Below, piece by piece: positions 46,524 through 64,000 of a stretch of DNA of 64,000 bases. The notes under the pieces were generated by a model. That model ran no database searches and had not been told where the DNA came from. It saw only the letters and a program-made list of their open reading frames with translations. The translations under genes were made by a program, and so were the position numbers. The stretch spans positions 4,030,001-4,094,000 of the forward strand of contig NZ_CP128360.1 of assembly GCF_030345095.1 (NCBI RefSeq). Direction: 5' to 3'. The stretch comes from Solwaraspora sp. WMMA2056. GTDB taxonomy: Bacteria > Actinomycetota > Actinomycetes > Mycobacteriales > Micromonosporaceae. Each line of letters opens with the position of its first letter. The first letter of the stretch is position 1.

Positions 46524-49500
46524 ATGAGTACTGCACTCGAGCCGCGCGAACTGGTGATCGCCTACGACCCGTGCGGCCACATCGAGTCGAGCCCACGCAT
46601 CGCCGGTGCGGTGCGCCGGGGCGGCGGAATCGGCGTGCTCGACCTGGCTGACGGGTCGGCACGCTCCATGCGCGCGTTGGACCAGCTCGTCGCCTGGTCG
46701 GCGGAGCCGGTCGCCGTCCGGGTGCCGGCCAACTGCCTGGCCTCGCTCGACGACGTCGAGCAGGTCACCGGCGGCCGGATCGATCTGGTGGTGGTCACCG
46801 GCGAGCTGCCGTGGCGCCTCGACCACCTGGTCGCCCGCTACCGGGTGCTCGCCGAAGTGACCAGTCTCACGGCCGCCCGTACGGCGGTCGGAGCCGGCGT
46901 GCACGGCCTGATCGCCCGGGGCATGGAGTCCGGTGGCGAGGTCGGCGAGCTGAGCACCTTCATCCTGGTGCAACAGTTGGTGGCGGCCGACCTCGGCGTA
47001 CCCGTCTGGGCCCTAGGCGGCATCGGCCCGCACACCGCCGCAGCCTGCGTGGCCGGCGGTGCGGCCGGCGTCGTGCTGGACACCCAGCTCGCGCTGATGC
47101 CCGAATCGGACCTGCCCACCGACGTGCTGGCCACGATCGGCCGGATGGACGGATCCGAAGCCGTCCTGGTCGACGGCTTCCGCGGCGTCGCCCGGACCCC
47201 CCGACGCCCCGGCACGACCGCGCCACCGCAACGCGCCGATCTGCTGCCCGTCGGTCAGGACGGCTGGCTCGCCGCCGAGTTCCGGCGACGGTGGGCCGAC
47301 AGCGCCGCCGCCGTACGGGGCCTGCGGGCCGCCATCGTCGAGGCCGTGACCGACGGCACCGCCGCCGACGTACTGCGACCCGACGGCCCCCTGGCCCAGG
47401 CACTGGGGCTGCGGGTGCCGGTCGCCCAAGGACCGATGACCCGGGTCAGCGACGAGGCCGGCTTCGCCGCGGCGGTCGCCGCCGACGGAGCCCTGCCGTT
47501 CATCGCGCTGGCACTGGCCACCGCCGGGCGTACCGAGGAGATGCTCACCGCGACCGCCGCCCGCCTCGGTGACCGACCGTGGGGTGTCGGTGTGCTCGGC
47601 TTCGCCCCCGACGACATCCGCACCGCGCAACTGGAGGTGATCAGGCGGGTCCGCCCCGGGTTCGCGATCATCGCCGGCGGGCGGCCGCCTCAGGCCAAGG
47701 AGCTGGAACGGGAGGGGATCCGCACCTTCCTGCACGTGCCGTCGCCCGGCCTGCTGCGGCAGTTCCTGCGGTCCGGGGCACGGCGGTTCATCTTCGAAGG
47801 CGCCGAATGCGGCGGCCACGTCGGTCCACGGGCCAGCTTCCCGCTGTGGGAGGCGCAGCTGGCCGTCCTCGCCGACCATCTCGACACCGTCCCGGCCGAG
47901 CAGGCCGCCGACGTGCAGGTGTTCTTCGCCGGTGGCATCCACGACGACCGCTCGGCGGCGATGGTCGCCGCCATGGCGGCACCACTGACCCGACGCGGGG
48001 TGCAGATCGGGGTGCTGATGGGCACCGCCTACCTGTTCACCACCGAGGCGGTCGACCATGGTGCGATCCGTCCGGCGTTCTCCCGGATGGCCCGCTCGGC
48101 GACCCGCACCGCGCTGCTGGAGACCGCTCCCGGGCACGTGACCCGCTGCCTGCACAGCGACTTCGTCGATGACTTCCACGCCCTGCGGGTCGAGCTGGAG
48201 TCGGCCGGGCTGGCCAACCGGCAGATCTGGGAGCACCTCGAACTGCTCAACGTCGGGCGGCTGCGGATCGCCAGCAAGGGCAAGAAGCGCGACGGCGACG
48301 CTCTGGTCGAGGTCGACGAGGCCACCCAGCTCAGTGAAGGGCTGTTCATGGCCGGGCAGGTCGCGGTGCTGCGCGACAGCGAGACGACGGTGGCCGACCT
48401 GCACCGTACGGTCACCGACCAGGCGGCCGCCTTCCACCAGATCCGTGCCGGGACGCTGCGTGACGCCTGGGCCGCGCCGGTACCGGAACAGGACGCCGCG
48501 CCGCTGGACATCGCCGTCGTCGGGATGGCCTGCATGCTGCCGAACTCGCCGGATCTGGCGGCCTTCTGGCGGACGGTGCTCGACAGCGTCGACGCCGTCA
48601 CCGAGGTCCCGCCCCACCGCTGGAATCCGGACATCTACTACGCGCCAGAGGTCGGCCCCGGCCAGACCGGCCGGATCAGCGTCTCCAAGTGGGGCGGCTT
48701 CCTCGCCGAGGTGCCCTTCGACGCGATCGCGTACGGGATCCCGCCCGCCGCGCTGGCCAGCATCGACCCGACCCAGCTGCTGGCCCTGGAGGTCTCGCAG
48801 CGGGCCCTGGTCGACGCCGGCTACACGCCCGGTCACGACGGGGTCGACCATTCCCGGACCGGTGTGATCTTCGGCGCCGAGGCCGGCAGCGACATGGGGC
48901 ACGCACAGACGCTGCGGACGATGCTGCCGGCGTACCTGGCGGACGTCCCTGCGGAACTGGACGACCAGCTGCCGACGGTGACCGAGGACTCGTTCCCCGG
49001 CATCCTGGCCAACGTCATCGCCGGACGGGTCGCCAACCGGCTGGACCTCGGCGGACCCAACTACACGGTCGACGCCGCGTGCGCCTCGTCGCTGGCCGCC
49101 ATGGACGCGGCCTGCAAGGAACTCGCCTCCGGCGGCAGCGACCTGATGATCTGCGGCGGTGCCGACCTGCACAACGGCATCAACGACTACCTGATGTTCA
49201 CCTCGGCGCACGCCCTGTCGCCGACCGGTCGCTGCCGGTCCTTCGACAGCACCGGCGACGGCATCGCGCTCGGCGAGGGCGTCGCCGCCGTCGTGCTCAA
49301 GCGACTGTCCGACGCCGAGCGGGACGGGGACCGGATCTACGCGGTGATCAAGGGCCTCGGTGGCTCCAGCGACGGTCGGGCACTCGGCCTGACCGCGCCA
49401 CGGGCGGACGGCCAGCGGCGCGCGTTGGACCGCGCGTACCGACAGGCCGGGGTCTCCCCGGCGCAGGTCGGCCTGATCGAGGCGCACGGCACCGGAACCG

Positions 49501-52500
49501 TCGTCGGCGACCGTACCGAGCTGGAGACGTTGACCACTGTGTTCAACGAGGCCGGCGCGACACCGGGCAGCTGCACCCTCGGCTCGGTGAAGTCGCAGAT
49601 CGGCCACACCAAGTGCGTCGCCGGACTCGCCGGCCTGATCAAGGCCTCGCTGGCGCTGTACACCGGCGTACGGCCACCGACCCTGCACCTGACCCGGCCC
49701 AATCCAGCATGGCACCCCGACCACAGCCCGTTCGCCTTCTACACCCAGGCCCGGCCGTGGGCCACGCCGGCGGCCGAGCGGATCGCCGGGGTGAGCGCGT
49801 TCGGCTTCGGCGGCACCAACTTCCACGCGGTGCTCGCCGCGTACCCCAACGCCCCGGAGCCACGGCACGCCCGGGACGACTGGCCGGCCGAGCTGTTCTG
49901 CTTCCGCGCCGGGGACCGGGCCGGTGCCCACCAGGGCGTTCGGCAGCTGCTGGCCACCTTCGACACCCGCGACCGGATGGGTCGGCGCTGGCGGCTGCGC
50001 GACCTCGCCGCCGCCCAGTCCCGCGAGAGCGAGACCCGTTCCGGGCCGGTGCAGGTCGCCGTCGTCGCCAGTGACCTCGACGAACTCGCCGGCCTGCTGC
50101 GGCGGGCGCTCGACGGTGACCACGACCCGGCCGTCGGCCTGCACCAGCCGGCCGCTACCCAGACCGGCGGCAAGGTCGCCTTCCTGTTCCCGGGCCAGGG
50201 CAGTCAACGGCCCGGCGCGCTGGCCGACCTCTTCGTCGCCTTCCCGGAGCTACGCCGGTTCCTCGACCTCGGTCGTGATCTCGCCGGTCCGCTGTTCCCA
50301 CCGGCCGCCTTCGACCCCGAGGGCGACCGTGGCCAGCAGGAGCGGGTCCGCGACACCCGGGTCGCGCAACCCGTACTGGGAATCGGCGGGCTGGCCATGC
50401 ACCACCTGCTCGGCCGGGTCAACGTGCGTCCCGACCTGGCCGGCGGACACAGCTACGGCGAACTGGTCGCCCTCTGCGCCGCCGGCTCGTTCGACGACCG
50501 TACCCTGTTGACCTTGAGCCGGCAGCGGGCCGAGGCGATTCTCGCGGCGGCCGGCACCGACCCCGGCACCATGGCGGCGGTCGCCGCCACCGCGGACCGG
50601 ATCAGCGAGATCCTGTCCGCAGCAAGACTGTCCGACGAGGTCGTCCTGGCCAACCACAACGGCCCGCAGCAGGTGGTGATCTCCGGACCCACGTCGGCGG
50701 TACGTCAGGCGGTGACCGCGCTCAAGGCGGGCGGTGTCTCAGCGCGGCCGATCCCGGTGGCCTGCGCGTTCCACAGCCCGGTGGTGGCCGGCGGTGTGTC
50801 GGCGTTCCGGTCCGTCCTGGCCGGCCACCGGGTGGCCGCGCCGGCCTTCCCGGTCTGGTCGAACCGCACGGCCGACAGCTATCCGACCAACCCCGAGGCG
50901 GTACGCGACGAGCTGGCCGGCCAGATCGCCGCACCGGTGCGGTTCGTCGACGAGATCGAGTCGATGTACGCCGCCGGGGCCCGGATCTTCGTCGAGGCCG
51001 GCCCAGGTCAGGTGCTCAGCCGGCTGGTCGACGCGGTACTCGGCGAGCGGCCGCATCTGGCCGTGTCCGTCGAAGGCCGGCGGGACGGCGGGCTACGCGG
51101 TTTCCTGTCCACCCTCGCCGAGCTGGCGTGCGCCGGTGTCCCGGTGCAGACCGGCTGGCTGTTCCGGGGCCGTCGGACCGCCGAGGTCACCGCATCGGCC
51201 TCGTCGACCCGGCCGATCTGGACGGTCGACGGGCAGTTGGTCCGCGATCAGCACGGCCGGCCGCTGCCCGGCGGCATGACGCCTCCCCGACAAATCAAGG
51301 AGCTGTCGATGACTGCATCCACCGAGGCCGGAAACGGCCATGGTCATGGCATCGTGTCCGGTGACGGTAACGGGGCCGGGCCGCTGGCCGGCAACGGCAA
51401 CGGCAACGGTGTCGCGCACGTGGCCGGCAACGGCAACGGAATCAGCCATCATCCAGGCACCGGCGACGGTGTCCGGCATGTCGCTGGTGCCGTGGCTGGT
51501 TACCGGGACGGGCGCGACGAACTGATCAGCGAGTTCCTGCGGACGAGTCGGGACCTGATCGCCTCCCAACGGGACGTGCTGCTGGCGTACTTCGGGGAGC
51601 GGCCGACAGCCGGCAACGGGTGGGTCGAACCTGCGGCGTACCAGTCGATGGTGGCCCAGCCGGCGATCGCCGCGCCGAGCCACTATCCCGAGGTGGTGGT
51701 GCCGCCCAGCGCGGCGACGGTGACGGACGCGCCAACCATCCCAGCGTCGCCTGCTGTCTCGTCGGCACCGCCGGCACCCGCCGTCCGCCCGGCTCCGCTG
51801 GCACCCGCCGTCCAGCCAGCTGCGTCGCCGCGTGCGGAGGTGGCCGAGGACCCGGCGGTCGCCGGTAGTGCCGTTCGGGCCGTGGCCGCCGCGCCGGTAG
51901 CGGCCCCTGCGGCCCCGGTCACAACGGCGACGGTGACCGCGACGGTCGCGGTACGGCCGTCGGTGGAGGTGGCGCAGTTCCAGGAGGCGATCCTGGCGGT
52001 GTTGAGTGAGCGGACCGGGTATCCGGTGGATCTGATCGAGTTGGATCTGGATCTTGAGGCGGATCTGAGTATTGATTCGATCAAGCGGGCTGAGGTTGCG
52101 GGTGAGGTGGCGACCCGGTTGCGGTTGTCGGTGGATGGTGACGAGTCGGAGTTGGAGGATCTGGTGCGGGCCCGGACGGTCCGGACCATGGTGGCGTGGC
52201 TGGCCGAGAAGATGGCCGCCGCACCCACCCCCGTCGCACCGGCCGCACCGGTGACCGCACCGGACCCGGCACCTGCTGTCACGGCACCTGCTGTCACGGC
52301 GACCGCTGTCCCCACGCATGCTGCCGCTGCGCCGGCTGTCGCCGCGCCGTCGCCGGCTGCGGTTCCGGTTCCGGCGTCGGCGCCGTCGGTGGAGGTGGCG
52401 CAGTTCCAGGAGGCGATCCTGGCGGTGTTGAGTGAGCGGACCGGGTATCCGGTGGATCTGATCGAGTTGGATCTGGATCTTGAGGCGGATCTGAGTATTG

Positions 52501-54161
52501 ATTCGATCAAGCGGGCTGAGGTTGCGGGTGAGGTGGCGACCCGGTTGCGGTTGTCGGTGGATGGTGACGAGTCGGAGTTGGAGGATCTGGTGCGGGCCCG
52601 GACGGTCCGGACCATGGTGGCGTGGCTGGCCGAGAAGATGGCCGCCGACCAGGCACCCGAGGCGGCTCCGGCGGCGGCCGCCCCGCCGACCGGGTCCGGC
52701 CCCGACCGCGCCGCGGCACCCCGTCGACTCGTCGCTCGGCCGGTGCCGGCCACCGGCGCGGTGGTCGCGCCCGAGGCGCTCGCCGGCACCCGCTTCCTGA
52801 TCACCGGCGGGTCAGCGGCGCTGGCACCGCTGGCCGAGCAGCTCGCCCAGCGCGGCGCGGCAGGTGCCACCGGCTCGATCCACGCTGGCGGGACGGACCA
52901 GGTGGCCGGCTACGACGGCGTGATCATCCTGGACGGGCTGAGCGACAGCGGCGGACCGCTGCTGCCCGGCATCTTCCCGTTCATCAAGCAGGCCCTCGCC
53001 GGTGGGGTGCGGTGGCTGATCGCGGCCGGCACCGCCGGTCCGCGTACCGACGGTTTCGCCGGTCTGTTCCGCACCATCAGCCGGGAGTACCCGCAGGTCT
53101 CGGCGACCTACCTGGAAGTGCCAGCGGGTGCCGACCACAGCCGCCTTGCCACCGGTCTGGTCACCGAACTGCTCAGCGGCGGGCAGACCCCGATCGTCAC
53201 CTGGTCGACAACCGGCCGGCAGACCGTCGACCTGGCCTCGGTCGATCTCGGCCCGCTCGCCGCAGGCGGTGCCGGCCCGGCCGGTGACGGCGCCGCCGAG
53301 GCCCAGGCGATCGGTCTGGACCAGGACTCGGTGGTGGTGCTCGTCGGCGGTGCCCGAGGCATCACCCCCTGGTTCGCCCGTACCCTGGCCGCCGCGAGCC
53401 GATGCCGCATCGAGCTGGTCGGCCGGACCCCGCTGCCGGAGGAGACGGAGCCCCCGGCGCTGGCCGCCGCCGCCGACAAGCCGGCGCTGCGAGCCGCGCT
53501 GGTGGCCCAGGGGATGCGGGCACCGGCGGAGATCGACCGCGCGGCGACGGCGATCCTGGCCGCCCGGGAGGTCCGCGCGACCCTGGACGAACTTCGGGAA
53601 CTCGGCAGTCAGGTGCGCTACCACAGCCTCGACGTCACCGACGCCGACGCCACCCGGCAACTGCTCAAGGAGATCCAGGGCGAGCGCGGACGCATCGACG
53701 GTCTGGTCTACGCGGCCGGCCGGATCGAGGACAAGCTGATCGCCGAGAAGGACCCCGCGTCGTTCGACCGGGTGTTCCAGACGAAGGTGCAGGGCGCGAT
53801 GACGGTGCTCGACGCACTGCGCGACGGTGCCGATCCACGCTTCGTGGTGCTGTTCGGCAGCATCGCAGCCGCGTACGGCAACCGGGGCCAGAGCGACTAC
53901 GCCGCCGCCAACGACGCGCTCGACCGGATCGGCGGCCGCTGGGCGGCCGACACCGGGGTGCGCTGCCTGACCGTGCACTGGGGGCCGTGGGCTCCGGGCT
54001 CCGTACACGGCGGGATGGTCAGCGCCGAACTGAGCCGGGAGTACGCCCGCCGGGGCATCGACCTGATCGATCCCGAGGAGGGCGCGCTGAGTCTGCTGCG
54101 TGAGCTCGCCTGGGGCGACCCGGCGGTCACCTCCGTGGTCTACACCGCCTCGGGATGGTGA
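46524..54161 (+). CDS. Multidomain lipid/polyketide synthase: NMO-like x2, KS, AT, ACP, ACP, KR
   Basis: 2545 aa. Residues 1-225: nitronate-monooxygenase (PfaD/ER)-like barrel, partial (RGMESGGEVG, LGGIGPHTAA). 290-640: second, full NMO-like barrel (EGAECGGHVG, LMGTAYLFTTEA), probably the FMN enoyl reductase. KS about 661-1105 with Cys853, His988, His1028. AT about 1218-1510 with Ser1310 (GHSYGE) and His1417. Gly/Asn-rich linker 1600-1665. ACPs 1813-1895 and 1955-2037 with Ser1852 and Ser1994 in LSIDSIKR, the PUFA-synthase-type motif. KR about 2270-2545 (GGARGIT, Ser2446, Tyr2459) preceded by a truncated SDR-like part. It should build a chain iteratively with reduction. It overlaps the next gene by a few bases. 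Resembles PfaA plus PfaD fused; product unknown. Confidence 0.9.
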   Translation: MSTALEPRELVIAYDPCGHIESSPRIAGAVRRGGGIGVLDLADGSARSMRALDQLVAWSAEPVAVRVPANCLASLDDVEQVTGGRIDLVVVTGELPWRLDHLVARYRVLAEVTSLTAARTAVGAGVHGLIARGMESGGEVGELSTFILVQQLVAADLGVPVWALGGIGPHTAAACVAGGAAGVVLDTQLALMPESDLPTDVLATIGRMDGSEAVLVDGFRGVARTPRRPGTTAPPQRADLLPVGQDGWLAAEFRRRWADSAAAVRGLRAAIVEAVTDGTAADVLRPDGPLAQALGLRVPVAQGPMTRVSDEAGFAAAVAADGALPFIALALATAGRTEEMLTATAARLGDRPWGVGVLGFAPDDIRTAQLEVIRRVRPGFAIIAGGRPPQAKELEREGIRTFLHVPSPGLLRQFLRSGARRFIFEGAECGGHVGPRASFPLWEAQLAVLADHLDTVPAEQAADVQVFFAGGIHDDRSAAMVAAMAAPLTRRGVQIGVLMGTAYLFTTEAVDHGAIRPAFSRMARSATRTALLETAPGHVTRCLHSDFVDDFHALRVELESAGLANRQIWEHLELLNVGRLRIASKGKKRDGDALVEVDEATQLSEGLFMAGQVAVLRDSETTVADLHRTVTDQAAAFHQIRAGTLRDAWAAPVPEQDAAPLDIAVVGMACMLPNSPDLAAFWRTVLDSVDAVTEVPPHRWNPDIYYAPEVGPGQTGRISVSKWGGFLAEVPFDAIAYGIPPAALASIDPTQLLALEVSQRALVDAGYTPGHDGVDHSRTGVIFGAEAGSDMGHAQTLRTMLPAYLADVPAELDDQLPTVTEDSFPGILANVIAGRVANRLDLGGPNYTVDAACASSLAAMDAACKELASGGSDLMICGGADLHNGINDYLMFTSAHALSPTGRCRSFDSTGDGIALGEGVAAVVLKRLSDAERDGDRIYAVIKGLGGSSDGRALGLTAPRADGQRRALDRAYRQAGVSPAQVGLIEAHGTGTVVGDRTELETLTTVFNEAGATPGSCTLGSVKSQIGHTKCVAGLAGLIKASLALYTGVRPPTLHLTRPNPAWHPDHSPFAFYTQARPWATPAAERIAGVSAFGFGGTNFHAVLAAYPNAPEPRHARDDWPAELFCFRAGDRAGAHQGVRQLLATFDTRDRMGRRWRLRDLAAAQSRESETRSGPVQVAVVASDLDELAGLLRRALDGDHDPAVGLHQPAATQTGGKVAFLFPGQGSQRPGALADLFVAFPELRRFLDLGRDLAGPLFPPAAFDPEGDRGQQERVRDTRVAQPVLGIGGLAMHHLLGRVNVRPDLAGGHSYGELVALCAAGSFDDRTLLTLSRQRAEAILAAAGTDPGTMAAVAATADRISEILSAARLSDEVVLANHNGPQQVVISGPTSAVRQAVTALKAGGVSARPIPVACAFHSPVVAGGVSAFRSVLAGHRVAAPAFPVWSNRTADSYPTNPEAVRDELAGQIAAPVRFVDEIESMYAAGARIFVEAGPGQVLSRLVDAVLGERPHLAVSVEGRRDGGLRGFLSTLAELACAGVPVQTGWLFRGRRTAEVTASASSTRPIWTVDGQLVRDQHGRPLPGGMTPPRQIKELSMTASTEAGNGHGHGIVSGDGNGAGPLAGNGNGNGVAHVAGNGNGISHHPGTGDGVRHVAGAVAGYRDGRDELISEFLRTSRDLIASQRDVLLAYFGERPTAGNGWVEPAAYQSMVAQPAIAAPSHYPEVVVPPSAATVTDAPTIPASPAVSSAPPAPAVRPAPLAPAVQPAASPRAEVAEDPAVAGSAVRAVAAAPVAAPAAPVTTATVTATVAVRPSVEVAQFQEAILAVLSERTGYPVDLIELDLDLEADLSIDSIKRAEVAGEVATRLRLSVDGDESELEDLVRARTVRTMVAWLAEKMAAAPTPVAPAAPVTAPDPAPAVTAPAVTATAVPTHAAAAPAVAAPSPAAVPVPASAPSVEVAQFQEAILAVLSERTGYPVDLIELDLDLEADLSIDSIKRAEVAGEVATRLRLSVDGDESELEDLVRARTVRTMVAWLAEKMAADQAPEAAPAAAAPPTGSGPDRAAAPRRLVARPVPATGAVVAPEALAGTRFLITGGSAALAPLAEQLAQRGAAGATGSIHAGGTDQVAGYDGVIILDGLSDSGGPLLPGIFPFIKQALAGGVRWLIAAGTAGPRTDGFAGLFRTISREYPQVSATYLEVPAGADHSRLATGLVTELLSGGQTPIVTWSTTGRQTVDLASVDLGPLAAGGAGPAGDGAAEAQAIGLDQDSVVVLVGGARGITPWFARTLAAASRCRIELVGRTPLPEETEPPALAAAADKPALRAALVAQGMRAPAEIDRAATAILAAREVRATLDELRELGSQVRYHSLDVTDADATRQLLKEIQGERGRIDGLVYAAGRIEDKLIAEKDPASFDRVFQTKVQGAMTVLDALRDGADPRFVVLFGSIAAAYGNRGQSDYAAANDALDRIGGRWAADTGVRCLTVHWGPWAPGSVHGGMVSAELSREYARRGIDLIDPEEGALSLLRELAWGDPAVTSVVYTASGW
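51956..52221 (+). repeat. First copy of 266-bp identical ACP repeat
   Basis: Identical, as far as I can read base by base, to 52382-52647 (offset 426 bp). It encodes the first internal ACP. It uses many T-ending codons and TTG (GTT, GAT, ATT, CTT, GGT), unlike the surrounding gene. Confidence 0.93.
52382..52647 (+). repeat. Second copy of 266-bp identical ACP repeat
   Basis: Second copy of the repeat at 51956-52221, encoding the second internal ACP. Identity includes all synonymous sites, which indicates recent duplication or ongoing gene conversion. Confidence 0.93.
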
Positions 54162-57100
54162 ACCGGATGTCGGACCTGACTGACCCTCACCAGACCATCG
54201 CGATCGTCGGTATGGCGGCGCTGATGCCCGGTGCCCCCGACCTCGACGCCTACTGGCGCAACCTGGTCGACGGCGTCGACGCCATCACGGACGTGCCGCC
54301 GCACCGCTGGGACGACGAGTTCTACGATCCGGAGCAGGCCCACCGACCGGACCGGCTGTACTGCCGGCGGGGTGGCTTCGTCGACGACTTCGCCACCTTC
54401 GAGCCACTGCGGTTCGGCATCATGCCGACCTCGATCGGCGACATCGAACCGGACCAGCTGATCACCCTGCAGGTGGCGGCCGCTGCGATCGACGACGCCG
54501 GCGGCCAGGACCGTCTGCCGGACCGGGACCGGATCGGCGTACTGCTCGGCCGGGGCGGGATCCTGAGCCCGGCGCAGGCGCGGTACGCCCAGCGGGTCCG
54601 GATGTCCAGCCAGGTCATCGGCATCCTCAAGGAGCTGATCCCGGACCTGCCGCCGGAGAGCCTCGACCGGGTCCGGCGCAAGTTCGACGAGCGGCTCGGC
54701 CCGCAGCAACCCGAGGGCACGATCGGGCTGGTGCCCAACCTCGCCGCCTCCCGGGTGGCCAACCGGCTGAACCTGCGTGGTCCGTCGTACACCATCGACG
54801 CCGCCTGCGCCTCGTCACTGATCGCGGTCGACCAGGGCATGACCGAACTGCGGGCCGGCCGGTTGGACGCGGTGCTCGCCGGTGGGGTGCACCACGTGCA
54901 CGACATCAGCTTCTGGTCGGTGTTCAGCCAGCTCCGGGCCCTGTCGTGGCAGGGTGAGATCCGTCCGTTCGACTCGTCGGCGGACGGCCTGCTGATCGGC
55001 GAGGGCACCGGCATCGTGGTGCTGAAGCGGCTGTCCGACGCGCTGGACGCCGGCGACCGGGTGTACGCGGTGATCCGCGGCAGCGGCGTCTCCAGCGACG
55101 GCCGGTCGGCGAGCATGTTCAACCCGGCGAGCAGCGGACAGTCGCTGGCCATCCGGCGGGCCTGGCAGGCCGCCGGGCTGGATCCGACCGCGCCGGACGC
55201 GCTGGGTCTGCTCGAGGCCCACGGCACCGGCACGCCGACCGGGGACGCCGCCGAACTGGTCACCGTCGCCGAGGTGTTCGGTGGATACCAGGGTGGGCCA
55301 CGTCCGGTGATCGGCTCGGTCAAGTCCATGATCGGGCACACCATGCCGGCGGCCGGGATCGCCGGCCTGATCAAGGCGACCCTCGCCGTGCACCGCGGCG
55401 TCCTGCCGCCCACCCTGCACTGTGGGCAGCCACGGGACGAGATGGCCGCGACCCGGTTCGCGCCGATCGCCGCCGCACAGCCATGGGAGAGCGACGGACC
55501 GCGCCGGGCCGGGGTCAACGCGTTCGGCTTCGGTGGGATCAACGCCCACCTGATCGTCGAACAGCCGCCGTCCGCCCCGTCGGCCTGGGCGGCCGTGCCG
55601 AACGGCACGGCCGGGCAACCGGCCCGCTCGGCCGCCGTCGAGGTCGCCGAACCGGACCAGGTGCTGTGGTTGGCCGCCGCCGAACCGGCCGGCCTCGCCG
55701 CACTGCTGGACCGCGACGATTCGACGGTACGGCGTGACGGTGCCGCGTTCGCCGACGGTCCGCAGGCCCACGGCGCGCCACCGTGCCGGATCGGGGTGGT
55801 GGACCCGACCGACAAGCGGCTGGCCACCGCCCGCCGCGCGGTGAGTCGGGGAGAGCCCTGGCGTGGTGCCCGGGACATCTGGTTCACCACGGCTGGGCTG
55901 CTGACCGCCGGCGGGAAACTGGCGTTCGTGTTTCCTGGACTGGAGGCCGAGTTCACGCCGCGTACCAAGGATCTGGCCGCGCACTTCGGGCTGGCGGACC
56001 GGGAATGGTCCGCCGCCGACCTGGGCCGGCACGGTGCCGGTCTGATCGAGGTGGGCAAGTTCCTCGACGAGGTGCTCGGCCGGATCGGGATCCGCCCGGA
56101 CGCGGTCGCCGGGCACAGCATCGGGGAGTGGTCCGCCGCAGCGGTGACCGGGCAGGTCAGTACCACCGACATGGACGGCTTTCTCAAGTTGTTCGACGCC
56201 GACTCGGTGGCGGTGTCCGGCTACGTCTTCGCCGCCGTGGGCGCCGGTGCCGACCAGGTGACGCCGGTGCTCGGCGACTTTCCGGGAGTGGTCCTGTCGC
56301 ACGACAACGCGCCAGCGCAGTCGGTGGTCAACGGTCCCGAGGAGCAGGTCGACCGGCTGGTCAACGAACTGCGTCGGCGCAACGTGCTGTGTCAGAAGTT
56401 GCCGTTCCGGTCGGCCTTCCACACCCCGGCGTTCGCCGACGGGTTGCGGTCGATTGGGGCTGCCCTGCAGTCCTGGCGGGTACATCCGACGACGGTCCCG
56501 GTCTGGTCGGCGACCCTGACGGCGCCGTTCCCCACCGACGAACAGCAGGTCAACCAGATCTTCGTCCGGCACATGATGGAGCCGGTCTGGTTCCGGCAGC
56601 TGACCGCCGCGATGTACGACGCCGGTTTCCGGGTCTTTCTGCAGGTCGGCGCGGGACAGCTGGCGTCGTTGGTCAGCGACAACCTGCGGGGTCGGGAACA
56701 TCTCGCCATGCCGGTCAACGTGGGCCACCGTACCGGTCTCGACCAGTTGCGCCGGGTCGCCACCGCGCTGTGGGTGGAGGGCGCGGCACCGGACCTACGG
56801 GCGCTGCGGCCACCCGCCGCCGCACCGGCCGCTCCGGCTCCGGCGCCACCGGCTGCTCCGGCGCGTCGAGGGCCGAAGATCCAGCTGGACCTGGGCGGTC
56901 CGCTGGTGCGCCTCGGACCGGGTGCCGACACCCTGCTCGGCCTGCCCGACCGGCCGGCGCCCCAGCCGTCCGGCCCGCCGTCGGGCCAGGCACTGCCGCC
57001 GGCCAGCACCGCTCAGGAACCACCTGTGCCACCGGCTGTGCCCCGCCCGTCGGTCGGGACCGAGCCGTCGGTCGAAGCCGAGCCGCCGGCTGCCGCGCGG

Positions 57101-58981
57101 CCGTCTGCTGTCGCCGAGCCGGCGGCCGGTTCGCTCAGCGCGTTGCACCGGCTCGCCGGCCGGTCCAAGGCCGCCGCGGAGCTTGCCGCGTTGCTACGGG
57201 ACACGGCGGACGGCGCGGTGACCGTGCTGGACGCCGCCACCCGGCCAGCCGATCCGGTGCCGGCGCCCCCGGCCAGGTCGGCTGCCGTACCGGCGGCTGA
57301 GACCCGGTCGGCCACCGTACCGGCCGCCGCCGGGCCGGCACCGACGGCACCGACCACGACGGCACCGACCACGACGGCACCGACCACGACGGCAGCGGCA
57401 CCGAAGGTCGGCCCGCCGCCCCGCACCGAGATCGCCCGGACCACCCTGCGGGTCTCCGTACAGACCATGCCCTACCTGCTCGACCACTGCTTCTTCGTGC
57501 AGCCGGCCGACTGGCCCAACCCCGAGGACCGGTGGCCGGTGGTACCGGCGACGACCGTCGTCACGCACATGATGGACGCGGTCGCGCAGGCCGTCCCCGG
57601 TCTGCGGGTGGTCGGTGTACGGGACGCCCGGTTCAACCGGTGGACCATCGCCGCACCGGCGCAGGACGTCGAGATCGTGGTCCGGGCAGCCGGTCCGGAC
57701 TCGTACGCGGTGAACTTCGGCAGCTTTGCCCGGGCGACGGTCGACGTGGCCGCCGACTATCCGGCCCCGGTCAGCGCGCCGTGGACACACGACCCGGCCA
57801 CCGAGACCGCTCCCCGGATCAGCGCCGAGGAGATGTACGCGGAGCGGCTGATGTTCCACGGTCCGCAGTTCCACGGGGTCACCACGGTGCACGCCCTCGG
57901 CGAGATGCACGTACGCGGCGTCGTCACCGCGCCCGTTCCGCCGGGCGCGCTGCTGGACAACGCCCTGCAGCTGATCGGAAACTGGCTCATCACCACCCAG
58001 CCGATGCGGACCGTGGCGCTACCGGTCGGGCTCGGCCACGTCCGGTTCTTCGGCCCACCGCCCGAGCCCGGTACGGCGTTCGAGTGCGTCGCCCGGGTCC
58101 GGTCGATCGACGACGCCCAACTGGTCGCGGACACCCAGCTCTCCGTCGGCGGCCGGGTCTGGGCGCAGATCGACGGCGCGGTCGACCGTCGGTTCGACAG
58201 CCATCCGCAGGCACGGCCAGCCGAACGTTTCCCGGAACGTTTCCCGATGTCGGTCCGTCAGCCGGAAGGGTGGACCGCCGTCTTCGACTGCTGGACCGAT
58301 CTGGTGACCCAGTCGATGGCCGCGCGGGGCATCCTCGGCACCGCCGCGTCCGTCGACTACGAGCGGCAGCCGGGGAAGGCCCGTAAGCAGTGGCTGCTCG
58401 GGCGGATCGCGGCGAAGGACGCGGTGCGCTTCCGGCAGTGGGACGCCGGGCACACCGACGTCTACCCGATCGAGCTGACCATCGCCAACGATCCGAACGG
58501 CCGGCCGCGGGTGGACCTGCGCCCCGGTCGGGGACTACGGGACTGCGACCTTTCCCTGGCGCACTGTGCCGAGGCCGCCGTGGCGATCGCCGGCCCGGCC
58601 CGGTCGACGCCGGACGGCCCCGGGGTCGGTATCGACATCGTCGAGGTCACCGACCGGCCGGCCAGCACGATCGACTACGCCCTGTCCGGTACGGAGACCG
58701 CGTTGCTCGACCAGGTCTGCGCCGGCGGGGACCGGCAGTTCTGGTTCGCCTGCTTCTGGGCTGCCAAGGAAGCCGCCGGCAAGGCGGAGGGGACGGGACT
58801 GGACGCGGCGCCCCGCCGGCTGAGGGTGGTCGCCGTCGACACCGGCACCCTGCTGGTCGAGGTCCCTTCCGGCAGGTCCTACCGGGTCACCTGCCGGAGT
58901 CTGGAGAACCCGCCCGATCTGCCGCAGCGACGCTACGTCGTCGGTTGGACCTGGGGCCCGGAACCTGCCCGGCATGCCTGA
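54155..58981 (+). CDS. Multidomain lipid/polyketide synthase: KS, AT, DH, PPTase
   Basis: 1608 aa. KS about 8-475 with intact Cys218 (DAACASS), His356 (EAHGTGT), His395 (IGHTMPAAG). AT-like about 588-890 with Ser655 (GHSIGEW). Pro/Ala-rich linker about 890-1090 with TTTAP repeats. Double-hotdog DH about 1095-1375 with His1111 (LLDHCFF) and Asp1268 in DNALQ (DxxxQ). Sfp-type phosphopantetheinyl transferase about 1380-1605 (WLLGRIAAKDAVR, GVGIDIVEV, WAAKEAAGKAEG), able to load the ACPs. The start may be ATG 54155, GTG 54158 (GTGA overlap with the previous stop) or ATG 54167; all imply coupling. The set resembles PfaC/PfaB/PfaE functions in one chain. A C-terminal PPTase is otherwise typical of enediyne PKSs, but the two-KS, two-protein layout differs. 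Confidence 0.9.
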   Translation: MVNRMSDLTDPHQTIAIVGMAALMPGAPDLDAYWRNLVDGVDAITDVPPHRWDDEFYDPEQAHRPDRLYCRRGGFVDDFATFEPLRFGIMPTSIGDIEPDQLITLQVAAAAIDDAGGQDRLPDRDRIGVLLGRGGILSPAQARYAQRVRMSSQVIGILKELIPDLPPESLDRVRRKFDERLGPQQPEGTIGLVPNLAASRVANRLNLRGPSYTIDAACASSLIAVDQGMTELRAGRLDAVLAGGVHHVHDISFWSVFSQLRALSWQGEIRPFDSSADGLLIGEGTGIVVLKRLSDALDAGDRVYAVIRGSGVSSDGRSASMFNPASSGQSLAIRRAWQAAGLDPTAPDALGLLEAHGTGTPTGDAAELVTVAEVFGGYQGGPRPVIGSVKSMIGHTMPAAGIAGLIKATLAVHRGVLPPTLHCGQPRDEMAATRFAPIAAAQPWESDGPRRAGVNAFGFGGINAHLIVEQPPSAPSAWAAVPNGTAGQPARSAAVEVAEPDQVLWLAAAEPAGLAALLDRDDSTVRRDGAAFADGPQAHGAPPCRIGVVDPTDKRLATARRAVSRGEPWRGARDIWFTTAGLLTAGGKLAFVFPGLEAEFTPRTKDLAAHFGLADREWSAADLGRHGAGLIEVGKFLDEVLGRIGIRPDAVAGHSIGEWSAAAVTGQVSTTDMDGFLKLFDADSVAVSGYVFAAVGAGADQVTPVLGDFPGVVLSHDNAPAQSVVNGPEEQVDRLVNELRRRNVLCQKLPFRSAFHTPAFADGLRSIGAALQSWRVHPTTVPVWSATLTAPFPTDEQQVNQIFVRHMMEPVWFRQLTAAMYDAGFRVFLQVGAGQLASLVSDNLRGREHLAMPVNVGHRTGLDQLRRVATALWVEGAAPDLRALRPPAAAPAAPAPAPPAAPARRGPKIQLDLGGPLVRLGPGADTLLGLPDRPAPQPSGPPSGQALPPASTAQEPPVPPAVPRPSVGTEPSVEAEPPAAARPSAVAEPAAGSLSALHRLAGRSKAAAELAALLRDTADGAVTVLDAATRPADPVPAPPARSAAVPAAETRSATVPAAAGPAPTAPTTTAPTTTAPTTTAAAPKVGPPPRTEIARTTLRVSVQTMPYLLDHCFFVQPADWPNPEDRWPVVPATTVVTHMMDAVAQAVPGLRVVGVRDARFNRWTIAAPAQDVEIVVRAAGPDSYAVNFGSFARATVDVAADYPAPVSAPWTHDPATETAPRISAEEMYAERLMFHGPQFHGVTTVHALGEMHVRGVVTAPVPPGALLDNALQLIGNWLITTQPMRTVALPVGLGHVRFFGPPPEPGTAFECVARVRSIDDAQLVADTQLSVGGRVWAQIDGAVDRRFDSHPQARPAERFPERFPMSVRQPEGWTAVFDCWTDLVTQSMAARGILGTAASVDYERQPGKARKQWLLGRIAAKDAVRFRQWDAGHTDVYPIELTIANDPNGRPRVDLRPGRGLRDCDLSLAHCAEAAVAIAGPARSTPDGPGVGIDIVEVTDRPASTIDYALSGTETALLDQVCAGGDRQFWFACFWAAKEAAGKAEGTGLDAAPRRLRVVAVDTGTLLVEVPSGRSYRVTCRSLENPPDLPQRRYVVGWTWGPEPARHA

Positions 58982-58990
58982 ACCAGGCCC

Positions 58991-59070
58991 TGATCGACGT
59001 GCCGACAAGCCGATCGACGTGCCGACAAGCTGATCGACGCCCTGACAAGCCGACCGACGTCCCGACAAGG
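58991..59070 (+). repeat. Four tandem 20-bp repeats before the ACP gene
   Basis: Four units (58991-59010, 59011-59030, 59031-59050, 59051-59070) with the pattern YGAYCGACGYSCYGACAAGS. They fill the 100-bp gap between the KS-AT-DH-PPTase gene and the ACP gene; the last unit supplies the AAGG of the AAGGAG ribosome binding site. Function unknown. Confidence 0.9.
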
Positions 59071-59081
59071 AGACCCGCATC

Positions 59082-59396
59082 ATGCCCGCCGACCACGACA
59101 CCATCCTGACGGAGATCTCGCAGATGCTGCGCGCGGTGCTGCCCGGGATCGATCCGGACGAAGAGATCACGATGGACACCAGCTTCCGTGACGACCTGGA
59201 GATGGAGAGTATCGACGTCATCTCGCTGGCCGGGCGGCTGCAGGCCCGGTACGGCGACTCCGTCAACTTCGCCCAGTTCGTCGCGGGGCTCGACGTGGAC
59301 TCGCTGCGCGCGCTGCGGGTCGGTGAGCTGGTCGGGCACATCTGCGCGGCGCTGGACGGACCGCCGGCGACGGTGGCGCAGGTGGCCGGCCAGTGA
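59082..59396 (+). CDS. Discrete acyl carrier protein
   Basis: A 104-aa ACP of the PP-binding family: helix 1 ILTEISQMLRAVLPG, the DTSFRDDLEMESIDVISLAG segment with the phosphopantetheine Ser in E-S-I-D (around residue 43) and a helical C-terminus. The residue before the Ser is Glu rather than the usual Asp, and the context differs from the LSIDSIKR of the internal ACPs, so it is probably recognised by other partners. AAGGAG precedes ATG 59082 and it overlaps the hydrolase gene by four bases. It may carry a starter unit or the finished chain to the hydrolase or sulfotransferase; that is inference. Confidence 0.9.
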   Translation: MPADHDTILTEISQMLRAVLPGIDPDEEITMDTSFRDDLEMESIDVISLAGRLQARYGDSVNFAQFVAGLDVDSLRALRVGELVGHICAALDGPPATVAQVAGQ

Positions 59397-60262
59397 CAAT
59401 GGTCCAGGTCAACGGCCTGGTGACGCACGTCCAGGAGCTGCCGGCGGTGGTGGCCGATCCGCCGGCCGGCGGACCGGCCACCAACCCGGGTGGCGGTCCG
59501 GCTGCCGAAGCCGTCGCCGGCCGGCCGGTCGCGGTCCTGATTCACGGTATCGGGCCGGACAGCCTGGCCAGCTGGTATCTCAGCCTGGCGCACCCACTGT
59601 CCGACGCCGGATTCCGAGTGATCATGTACGACCTGCGGGGCCACGGACGGACCGAGCGGCCGCCGACCGGCTACCGGATGGACGACCTGGTCGACGACCT
59701 GGTCGGGCTGCTGGACCGGCTCGGCGTCGACGTACCCGTGCATCTGCTGGGCAACTCGCTGGGCGGTTCCATCGCTTTCGGATACGCGGCCCGGTACCCG
59801 GACCGGGTCGCCTCGGTGGTCGCGGTGGAGTCGGCACCGGCGACCGCCCAGTGGCTCGCCCGGGTGGGCCGGCAGCTGGTGCGGGCCGCGCAGCCGGACG
59901 GCGACGGCGGTCCGCTGGAGATGGCCGCCCGTGGCGGTGAGCGGGGTGCCCGCTACGCCGCGGCGGTCCGCCAGCTTGTCGTCGCCACCACCGCCGGTCG
60001 GGACCTGCCGGCCAGCACCCCCGCCGATCCGGCGGCGATACGGGCGATCACCTGCCCGGTGCTCGGCATCTTCGGTAGCGACTCGTCCGCCGCCGATCTG
60101 GCGCCGGCACTGGTCGAGCTACTGCCGCAGACCGAGCTGGTGATCGTCCCCGGGCACCGGCACGCGGTGCTGATCACCGCCCGCGACCAGGTCCGCAGCC
60201 AGGTGCTGCCCTGGCTCGCCCGGCAACTCGCCGACACCGGACGGCCCGCCCTGCGTGGTTGA
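59393..60262 (+). CDS. Alpha/beta hydrolase (possible release enzyme)
   Basis: A 289-aa alpha/beta hydrolase: oxyanion segment LIHGIGPDS, MYDLRGHGRTE, nucleophile elbow LLGNSLGGS (Ser122), acid Asp230 (GSDSS) and His in PGHRHAV (255 or 257). The start GTG 59393 overlaps the ACP stop (GTGA); ATG 59399 is an alternative. An N-terminal insertion rich in Gly/Pro/Ala (residues 20-42) is unusual for the family. Next to the ACP and synthases it may hydrolyse or transfer the acyl product; substrate not known. Confidence 0.87.
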   Translation: MTMVQVNGLVTHVQELPAVVADPPAGGPATNPGGGPAAEAVAGRPVAVLIHGIGPDSLASWYLSLAHPLSDAGFRVIMYDLRGHGRTERPPTGYRMDDLVDDLVGLLDRLGVDVPVHLLGNSLGGSIAFGYAARYPDRVASVVAVESAPATAQWLARVGRQLVRAAQPDGDGGPLEMAARGGERGARYAAAVRQLVVATTAGRDLPASTPADPAAIRAITCPVLGIFGSDSSAADLAPALVELLPQTELVIVPGHRHAVLITARDQVRSQVLPWLARQLADTGRPALRG

Positions 60263-60290
60263 CGTCGTCGTTCTCACCCAGGAGGTTCCG

Positions 60291-61250
60291 ATGCAGTTCG
60301 AGGCGCCCGGCCGGGCGATCATCATCAGCAGCGGGCGGTGTGGCTCCACGCTGCTGTCCGACCTGATCGTCGAGGAGCCGTCGACCCTGTCCGTCCAGGA
60401 GTTCTTCATGGCCACCCCGTCGTGGGCGAAGGCCACTGAGCCGATCACCGGGGCGGCGTACTGGCAGGTGCTGAGCAGCCCGAAGCCGGAACTTGCCACC
60501 CTGTTCGCCATCGGCCTGCCGCCGAAGGAGGTGCGCTATCCGGCGGACGGCCGGTGGGCCGGCAACCTGACCGAGTTGCCGCAGCTGCTGGCGATCACCC
60601 TGCCGAAGCTCACCGACGATCCGGACGGCCTGTTCGACCAGCTCGCCGGAGAGGTACCGGACTTCCCCGAGCAGCCCTTCGTCGACCACCACCGGATGTT
60701 CCTGGACCTGCTCGCCCGGTTGACCGGCCGGCGTCGCTGGGTGGAGCGCTCCGGCGGATCAAGCCAGATCGCCCCGTACCTGCTGCGGTCCTTCCCGGAC
60801 ACCCGGATCGTCTATCTGACCCGCAACTGGGCGGACACGGCGCGGTCGATGAGCAGGCATTCGTCGTTCCAGCTCATCCAGCTGCGGCTGGAGTTCGTCT
60901 CCCGGTGCGGCGTGGACCCCTTCCAGATGGGCCCGGACCAGCGGGTGCCGGCGGATCTCGAGCATCTGCTACCCGACCGGATCACCGCCGACCTGCTCCG
61001 CGAGCGGGGCGAGGACAGCACCCGTTACCTCGGGCTCTGCGCGTTCATGGCGGCGCAGGCGGAGCAGGCACTCGCCGACAACCCGCCGGCGCACCTGCTC
61101 ACCATGACCTACGAGGACCTGGTCGCCGACCCGGAGCCGCAGTTGGCCCGGCTGGGTGAGTTCCTCGAGTTCGACGACCCGTCCGGCTGGGCCCGACAGG
61201 TCGCCGGCCGGGTGGGCAGGGGCGCGGTACGGCAGACCGCCGCCGTGTGA
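60291..61250 (+). CDS. PAPS-dependent sulfotransferase
   Basis: A 319-aa sulfotransferase of the Sulfotransfer_3-like group. The 5'-phosphosulfate loop is IISSGRCGSTLLSDLI at the N-terminus; the 3'-phosphate site is FPDTRIVYLTRNWADTARSMSRHS with the conserved Arg and Ser; MTYEDLVADPEPQLARLGEFL is the C-terminal helix typical of the family. It should move sulfate from PAPS to a hydroxyl or amine. AGGAGG five bases before ATG 60291 decides the start; the frame extends to 60255 inside the hydrolase gene. Linked to a lipid-type synthase it suggests sulfation of the product or of its carrier molecule. Confidence 0.9.
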   Translation: MQFEAPGRAIIISSGRCGSTLLSDLIVEEPSTLSVQEFFMATPSWAKATEPITGAAYWQVLSSPKPELATLFAIGLPPKEVRYPADGRWAGNLTELPQLLAITLPKLTDDPDGLFDQLAGEVPDFPEQPFVDHHRMFLDLLARLTGRRRWVERSGGSSQIAPYLLRSFPDTRIVYLTRNWADTARSMSRHSSFQLIQLRLEFVSRCGVDPFQMGPDQRVPADLEHLLPDRITADLLRERGEDSTRYLGLCAFMAAQAEQALADNPPAHLLTMTYEDLVADPEPQLARLGEFLEFDDPSGWARQVAGRVGRGAVRQTAAV

Positions 61251-61300
61251 CCCGCAGACATTCCGCACCAGCAAACCACAGTAGAGGGAGAGAGTGTGTG

Positions 61301-63155: not shown

Positions 63156-64000
63156 ATGTCGTGGTACCGGCGCAGGCTGGCCGTCCTTGTCGTGACAGGT
63201 GCACTGGTGGCACCGGTCGCGGGCTGTACGTCGGCGCCGGACCCGGCACCGCCACCGACCTCGGCGCCGTCGGGCGGCGTACCGACCGACCCGACCGGGC
63301 CGGGCGGGACGCCGCCTCCGGCCGGGTCGTCGGCGCAGGAGATCACGGTTGACGGCTACGCGCGGACCTACCGGGTGTACCGACCTGCCAACCTGCCGAC
63401 CGACGGCCCGGTTCCGCTGGTGGTTATGTTGCACGGCCTGCTCGGCAGCGGGGAACAGGCCGAGTCCTGGTACGGCTGGAACTCCGCCGCCGACGCGGGA
63501 GGGTTCGTGGTGGCGTACCCGGACTCGCGCAACCGGGCGTGGGCGGTGTCGCCGGAGTGCTGTGGCGTGTCGGCGCGGGACGGAGTCGACGACACCGCGT
63601 TCGTGGCGGCGGTCGTGGAGTCACTGCGCGGCCGGTTGCCGGTGGACCCGCGTCGGACCTATGTCGCCGGCATCTCCAACGGCGGCATGCTCGCCTACCG
63701 GCTGGCCTGCGACACGTCGATCTTCGCTGCGGTCGTCGCGGTGTCGTCGACCATGCTGGGGGACTGCCCGGCACCCGAACCGATCTCGGTGCTGCACATC
63801 CACGGCACCGCCGACGAGACGATTCCGTACACCGGGGGACCGGGGCGATGGGACGGTGCCGGTCGCGACGGGGTACCGGGCACCGTCGACGGACCACCCG
63901 TACCCGATCTGGCGCAGCGCTGGCGGCAGATCGACCAGTGCGCTGCCCCCCGGACCAGCACCGAGGGGACCGTCACCACGGTGACGGCCAGCTGCCCCGA
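63156..64000 (+). CDS. PHB-depolymerase-like lipoprotein esterase (partial)
   Basis: The frame runs from ATG 63156 to the window end without a stop (281 codons). The signal peptide ends with lipobox VAGCTS, so it is a lipoprotein. After a Pro/Ser-rich spacer comes a PHB depolymerase/feruloyl-esterase-type alpha/beta hydrolase: RTYRVYRPANLP, LVVMLHGLLGSGEQAE, nucleophile Ser174 in GISNGGM, LHIHGTADETIPYTGG with the acid Asp. The C-terminal His is beyond the window. It starts seven bases after the preceding stop, so translation is likely coupled. The natural substrate is probably an extracellular ester; a role in handling the cluster product is possible but unproven. Confidence 0.85.
   Translation, partial: MSWYRRRLAVLVVTGALVAPVAGCTSAPDPAPPPTSAPSGGVPTDPTGPGGTPPPAGSSAQEITVDGYARTYRVYRPANLPTDGPVPLVVMLHGLLGSGEQAESWYGWNSAADAGGFVVAYPDSRNRAWAVSPECCGVSARDGVDDTAFVAAVVESLRGRLPVDPRRTYVAGISNGGMLAYRLACDTSIFAAVVAVSSTMLGDCPAPEPISVLHIHGTADETIPYTGGPGRWDGAGRDGVPGTVDGPPVPDLAQRWRQIDQCAAPRTSTEGTVTTVTASCP

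Follow-up and report, generated by a model that had tools for sequence, protein, structure and literature searches.

The window analyzed here is a 64,000-nucleotide stretch of the Solwaraspora sp. WMMA2056 genome (positions 4030001-4094000 of NZ_CP128360.1, the single contig of this 7.01 Mb genome), in which five consecutive forward-strand genes encode two polyketide synthase (PKS)-type proteins, PKS1 and PKS2, a discrete acyl carrier protein (ACP), an alpha/beta hydrolase, and a sulfotransferase (ST) (Table 1). Gene calls and domain profile scans recovered the genes at the positions, and the domains in the order, given by a first-pass annotation of the sequence, i.e., two NMO-like enoyl reductase (ER) halves, ketosynthase (KS), acyltransferase (AT), two ACPs, and ketoreductase (KR) in PKS1, and KS, AT, dehydratase (DH), and phosphopantetheinyl transferase (PPTase) in PKS2. 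The genes overlap by 7 bases (PKS1/PKS2), 4 bases (ACP/hydrolase), and 8 bases (hydrolase/ST), and a 100-base gap separates PKS2 from the discrete ACP gene. This gap (58982-59081) contains about four imperfect copies of a unit of about 20 bases (GATCGACGTGCCGACAAGC-like). Comparison with related loci places the synthase among the Type M-like secondary-lipid synthases and reveals that the gene following the hydrolase is either a glycosyltransferase (GT) or, in a single clade, an ST.

Table 1. Genes and domains of the synthase locus and of the genes that follow it, in window positions (rows, aligned sequences of related loci; AF2, AlphaFold2)
Feature	Position	Strand	Evidence or conservation
PKS1, ERa-ERb-KS-AT-ACP-ACP-KR, 2545 aa	46524..54161	+	Domain profiles
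ERa, first NMO/FabK-like half	46524..47363	+	NMO 1.4e-9; profile match to ERb 96.7%; AF2 beta/alpha segment
ERb, FabK-like FMN enoyl reductase	47376..48467	+	
KS1, Cys853/His988/His1028	48507..49853	+	Invariant in 74/74 rows
AT1, malonyl-type, Gln1225/Gln1282/Ser1310/Arg1335/His1417	50172..51053	+	
ACP1 domain	51975..52229	+	
ACP2 domain, near-identical copy of ACP1 (249/255 nt)	52401..52655	+	
KR domain	52701..54158	+	KR 2.4e-33; motif columns in alignment
PKS2, KS-AT-DH-PPTase, 1608 aa	54155..58981	+	Domain profiles
KS2, intact Cys218/His356/His395	54194..55579	+	Kept in 70/70 rows; own clade 100/100
AT2, with Ser655/His756, Leu in place of the oxyanion Gln, no malonyl-binding Arg	55922..56704	+	
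DH, PS-DH type, His1111/Asp1268	57452..58189	+	PF14765 2e-12; both residues in 70/70 rows
PPTase domain	58382..58978	+	PF01648 1.3e-10; motifs NGRP, LSLAH
Discrete ACP, Ser43	59082..59396	+	Ser in 75/75 rows
Alpha/beta hydrolase, Ser122/His257, acid Glu146 or Asp230	59393..60262	+	
Sulfotransferase, motifs SGRCGSTLL and R190..S198	60255..61250	+	PF13469; alignment; AF2 pLDDT 83.7; fold
SEC, secreted protein, 633 aa	61247..63148	+	Beside 9/11 ST loci; possible operon member
D2, secreted/lipoprotein esterase, polyhydroxybutyrate (PHB)-depolymerase-like	63156..64000, runs past window	+	PF10503 4.4e-10 (full gene, L093); 9/11 ST loci; possible operon member

PKS1 is of the fused PfaD-PfaA type. 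Fold-search matches to its ER region cover mainly residues 209-649, and ERa would be a degenerate or structural half. The fused FabK-like ER is a conserved feature, the ER regions of 20 relatives being 46-68% identical to that of the window. All five diagnostic residues of AT1 are retained in 74/74 rows (68/68 once six loci are removed). Conservation in PKS2 was counted over 70 rows, leaving out L029, L036, L054, L080, L089, and L091, as the gene called at these loci was PKS1. The Cys/His/His set of KS2 is invariant across these rows, indicating that KS2 is not a chain-length factor (CLF). Together with the fused PPTase, these data support the view of the first-pass annotation that the locus encodes a self-loading, ER/KR/DH-complete system, an iterative synthase related to PfaA.

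The same annotation held that all key catalytic residues are present, which proved correct for KS1, KS2, AT1, and DH and in need of qualification for AT2. The latter has its catalytic Ser and His in 70/70 rows, but Leu or Val stands in place of the oxyanion Gln in every row. The column of the malonyl-binding Arg holds Phe, Tyr, or Leu in 70/70 rows and a gap in a small realignment, with Arg in neither, and the motif I Gln is retained in 2/70 rows. These three residues are those lost from the terminal acyltransferase PfaB according to a 2026 crystal structure report (PMC12895367). Among control loci, the first-gene PfaA-type ATs retain all three (6/6), and the second-gene ATs, read at 5 of 6 loci, lack the oxyanion Gln and Arg in 5/5 and the motif I Gln in 4/5, the exception being L167; the second-gene AT of L098 was partly read, as a split match, and the L168 stretch that was searched yielded none. 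With its Ser-His dyad kept and these residues gone, AT2 should not hold malonate, and we infer that it is a PfaB-like transfer AT.

That the pair is a polyunsaturated fatty acid (PUFA)-type synthase, as had been proposed, is not supported, given its DH type, the absence of a CLF, and a TIGR02813 score of 918.3 bits, below the cut-off of 1010.1 that 3/296 genomes of the phylum exceed; the P1b' motif of its PPTase is not of the PUFA kind either. A scan of the PKS2 DH at E values up to 10 returned PS-DH and PKS_DH_N matches only, and no FabA-like DH, whereas each of two PfaBC comparators shows three FabA-like stretches, accompanied in one comparator by a PS-DH match. Nor was a PfaC-like KS-CLF pair encountered, PKS2 having one KS with an active Cys followed by an AT where comparator second genes show a second KS-like stretch. 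The Beijerinckia ArsD-like protein, by comparison, consists of PS-DH and PPTase, so that PKS2 resembles a DH-PPTase of the ArsD type preceded by a KS-AT.

A KS tree of 63 rows, in which some branches were long but not those of the window, placed KS1 in a 24-row clade (100/98) of actinobacterial relatives plus Sulfidibacter. Together with the Type P synthases of Beijerinckia and Methylosinus, this clade nests in a 28-row group (97/90) that adjoins the PfaA rows. KS2 fell in a separate 18-row clade (100/100). Three enediyne-type rows formed a clade of their own (100/100), and an enediyne identity was rejected on these grounds. The nearest characterized KS neighborhood is thus that of the Type P ArsA-ArsD systems of Azotobacter and Beijerinckia, which make the C22-C26 chains of phenolic lipids. 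These share with the window a PS-DH-PPTase protein and an ER-KS-AT-ACP-KR protein in which both NMO-like halves are present, at 43% identity across ERa and ERb. They differ in that type III PKS genes flank them (two in Beijerinckia) and in that the window adds a KS-AT fused to the DH-PPTase as well as the discrete ACP, hydrolase, and ST/GT genes. No type III PKS domain was detected in the 6 products of 46524-63148, in 5 upstream products (from 37392 on), or in 6 downstream products of L093. With PfaA-E/PfaBC systems the window shares the PfaA-like KS-AT-ACPs-KR order and a second-gene AT without oxyanion Gln and malonyl Arg; it differs in having neither CLF nor FabA-like DH, in its ER fused in front, in its fused PPTase, and in scoring under the TIGR02813 cut-off.

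The closest match is Type M. This is one of 20 types distinguished by Shulse and Allen in 2011, listed in that work for Frankia, Actinosynnema mirum, Renibacterium, and Streptomyces avermitilis with the product unknown and with PPTase motifs xGxP and hShxH in the absence of (F/S)NxSH (PMC3098273). In a 2026 survey, Aquimarina and Flavobacterium are described as having a fused pfaDA together with a PPTase-bearing pfaBC, an arrangement likened closely to the uncharacterized Renibacterium cluster (PMC13291983). The window likewise has a fused PfaD-PfaA and, after it, a PfaB/C-like protein with a C-terminal PPTase, the layout given in that survey. Its NGRP and LSLAH motifs conform to xGxP and hShxH; among relatives, hShxH is found in 66/70 rows and (F/S)NxSH in 0/70. 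As motifs P1a and P1b' they agree with the Type M-T branch. Type M and the relatives of the window also have in common that they are mostly actinobacterial. Actinosynnema pretiosum (L087), taken as a proxy for the named Type M strains, shares the KS clades of the window and has one such core in its genome. The window differs from Type M in bearing an ST where the relatives examined here have a GT, and in its downstream secreted protein, PHB-like esterase, and ABC-2 exporter genes and recent ACP duplication.

Regarding that duplication, both ACP domains of PKS1 lie in a 300-nt direct repeat (51956-52681) with 94% DNA identity, which suggests recent duplication or gene conversion. Tandem ACPs as a hallmark of the family were rejected, a single ACP being present in 54/74 PKS1 rows by a regular-expression motif count that divergent copies may escape. 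This bears on the possibility that the product is polyunsaturated or a polyene, like PUFA or the polyenes of up to C22 made by Rhodococcus RerA/RerB. KS1 does lie within a PfaA-like superclade, and RerA, a polyene maker, has tandem ACPs; RerA/RerB (Type Q, Rhodococcus erythropolis PR4) also resembles the window in being iterative and in having a dedicated PPTase (PMC11563203). However, tandem ACPs are not a family trait, and RerA/RerB is arranged as one KS-AT-ACP2-KR-DH protein plus a PPTase-Y-TE protein for which the available part of the report names no ER (PMC11563203), whereas the fused FabK-like ER is conserved here. The DH is of PS-DH type and a FabA-like DH is absent. FabA-like DHs have a role in making cis bonds. 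We consider a polyene product unlikely.

The distribution of the ST was examined in 84 loci, the best 80 of one genome scan plus four plasmid loci, which do not constitute a random sample. The DH-PPTase half was present in 74 of the 80, across many actinomycete genera, and the contigs of the remaining six were cut short; the core PKS1-PKS2-ACP-hydrolase is kept in the actinomycete loci and in one Acidobacteriota genome. Ten of the 84 loci were dropped because they had no ACP/hydrolase match (eight on contigs ending early, two of Type P). In the remaining 74, the position downstream of the discrete ACP and hydrolase genes, here called the slot, was taken by a GT in 63 and an ST in 11, with no locus having both and none having neither. 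The first-pass annotation had not picked up that the ST occupies the place of a GT in relatives. All 11 ST loci belong to the Micromonosporaceae, judging from their titles. The slot GT is GT1-type (PF00201/PF06722 in the representative scanned).

As the 63:11 ratio came from a nonrandom set, family and phylum samples were also searched. Among 180 genomes sampled evenly from the family of the window, the core (DH-PPTase at E up to 1e-60) was detected in 33, an ST match at E up to 1e-50 in 37, and an ST of >470 bits in 31. Core and ST occurred together in 30 genomes, on one strand and always 1.03-1.49 kb apart, so that the tight link to ACP, hydrolase, and ST noted in the first-pass annotation is kept in 30/33 core-bearing genomes of the family. 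The three core-only genomes (G454, G460, and G473) all have a GT in the slot; their core scores were 468-563 bits versus 758-854 in the 30 ST-linked genomes. Within the genus, core and ST were found in 7/7 genomes. In the phylum sample, 9/396 genomes had the core, with an ST in the slot in two and a GT in seven. Since the genomes are related and not independent draws, no P value is claimed. On the strength of the linkage to the core and the mutual exclusivity with the GT, the ST was rejected as a chance neighbor.

In an 86-row KS1 tree, the 11 ST rows and one row from a contig that stops short of the slot formed a single clade (100/100), this unlabeled row being the reason why two label changes were counted instead of one. 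Acidobacteriota and deep lineages are among the GT rows. The family's three GT-bearing genomes lie outside the ST clade, and G204, a genome of the same family as the window, is placed among Micromonospora rows. A single GT-to-ST replacement is the simplest history of the slot, if not a proven one given that the backbone forks that nest the ST clade among GT rows have support of only ~81-86% and the tree is midpoint rooted. The companion genes also differed: within flanks of 6-9 kb (shorter at a few GT loci), the 63 GT loci had a methyltransferase next to them in 41 cases, an ABC protein in 10, both in 2, and neither in 10, and among the 11 ST loci a secreted protein plus esterase accompanied 9 and an ABC protein 6. 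The genes for head groups and export thus change in sets while the core remains constant. The confinement of the ST form to one clade and the GT/ST alternation are new; the fused layout, for which the first-pass annotation knew no characterized product, has precedent in the 2026 survey (PMC13291983). As evidence against its reading, that annotation named a placement of both KSs in a characterized family with a known product and the same gene neighborhood. No such family emerged, as no characterized product was found in open-licence PubMed Central (PMC) papers, in which we likewise found no report of a GT/ST switch.

The ST motifs SGRCGSTLL and R190..S198 are presumably those of a 3'-phosphoadenosine-5'-phosphosulfate (PAPS)-type enzyme, and translation of the ST may actually begin at the Met of codon 13. 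The hydrolase is a probable chain-release thioesterase/acyltransferase. In six GT-type loci (L038, L039, L042, L048, L077, and L079), the hydrolase nucleophile is Cys instead of Ser (GNCFGG), which may mean acyl transfer instead of hydrolysis.

The explanation that we favor, with confidence somewhat above even, is that the locus encodes a Micromonosporaceae, ST-bearing form of the Type M secondary-lipid synthase whose long chain is sulfated and then released. Going by its domain, the PPTase of PKS2 would load the ACPs; AT1 would supply malonyl units for iterative extension by KS1, perhaps with KS2 as well, and the KR, the PS-DH of PKS2, and the FabK-like ER would carry out the reductions. Because of this reductive set, the chain is expected to be long and largely saturated, as with ArsA/ArsD. 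By analogy with PfaB, AT2 would transfer the completed acyl chain onto the discrete ACP, where the PAPS-dependent ST would sulfate a chain hydroxyl, most likely the beta-hydroxyl remaining from the final KR reduction; the relatives would glycosylate the same position. The alpha/beta hydrolase would then free the product, and the ABC-2 transporter downstream may export it.

Several observations weigh against this scheme, in which sulfation of the synthase product is probable and the acceptors of both GT and ST are predicted. The GT could act on a carboxylate. AT2 retains GHSxG and an xAFH-like motif, malonyl-AT features unlike PfaB, so that the PfaB analogy is functional and tentative; the PfaB model was absent among the PKS2 NCBIfam matches listed (25 of 29), and the discrete ACP is the presumptive acceptor. 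The active-site columns of the PPTase are less conserved (D1494 in 63/70 rows). An in-frame stop occurs in 4 of the 31 strong ST matches, some ST loci lack neighboring SEC, esterase, and ABC genes, and the backbone support of only ~81-86% and midpoint root leave the nesting of the ST clade insecure. Finally, genome G552 has an ST without the core: in L159 (G552:C2:4269000-4288000), the ST is 62% identical to that of the window and no synthase match was found in the 19 kb fetched. G552 may have lost or moved the cluster, or its ST may have another role.

The ST could also belong to a terminal-alkene maker. In CurM and olefin synthase (Ols) systems, the ST sulfonates a beta-hydroxyacyl-ACP, and hydrolysis, decarboxylation, and loss of sulfate then yield a 1-alkene. 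The ACP, hydrolase, and ST of the window would accordingly be a split counterpart of the ACP-ST-TE end of CurM (curacin) and Ols, with the hydrolase setting off the steps to a long 1-alkene, and it is true that ACP, ST, and alpha/beta hydrolase occur together in both and that the best fold matches of the ST model are of the CurM/Ols kind, tied with tyrosylprotein sulfotransferase. In the window, however, these are separate genes, sequence similarity is marginal (E 0.11), and the hydrolase is also kept with the GT. CurM thioesterase was not among the hydrolase matches listed (60 of 282), which excludes nothing. We rate an alkene product as improbable, on a par with a polyene. Slightly less probable again is a combined scheme in which all forms have in common an intermediate consisting of a long beta-hydroxyacyl chain carried by the discrete ACP; most actinomycete clusters would glycosylate it, while the Micromonosporaceae would sulfate it and release a terminal alkene through a dispersed CurM/Ols module.

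Yet another possibility is that the synthase works as described and the ST sulfates a different surface molecule, being merely coregulated. In its favor, the substrate of the ST is only predicted, and in addition to the homologue that G552 has without the core, weaker homologues (177-230 bits) exist in six other genomes. Against this stand the mutual exclusivity of GT and ST in one slot at all 74 assessable loci and the location of 30/30 co-occurring core and ST pairs within 1.5 kb. We find this the most doubtful of the alternatives, if by little.

As to the surroundings, the ST gene overlaps by 4 bases the gene for SEC, which has no Pfam or NCBIfam match, and the esterase gene follows. Just beyond the window (0.3-2.2 kb; 3.3-5.2 kb of L093) are stretches resembling an ABC ATPase (67%) and an ABC-2 permease (65%), the permease being also recognized by Pfam. 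The upstream genes lie on the opposite strand and are unrelated, being of TPR/FN3, MoxR, DUF58, and transglutaminase types. Elsewhere in the same genome, L094 (G000:C1:2853000-2872000) is a separate enediyne cassette with PKSE, TE, UnbV-like, flavin reductase, and two DUF1702 homologues, genes 40-78% identical to those of an annotated Streptomyces plasmid cluster. Sulfidibacter corallicola (Acidobacteriota) carries a second, more distant DH-PPTase core copy at G575:C1:2921103-2922485.

Type M-like synthases are widespread in actinomycete genera, yet open-licence PMC papers yielded no product for them. The clade-wide exchange of a GT for an ST in one slot predicts hydroxylated lipids with interchangeable head groups. 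Should the ST prove CurM-like, the locus would represent a new route to long-chain alkenes, and if the alkene reading is true, an alkene pathway would have been built onto a secondary-lipid synthase.

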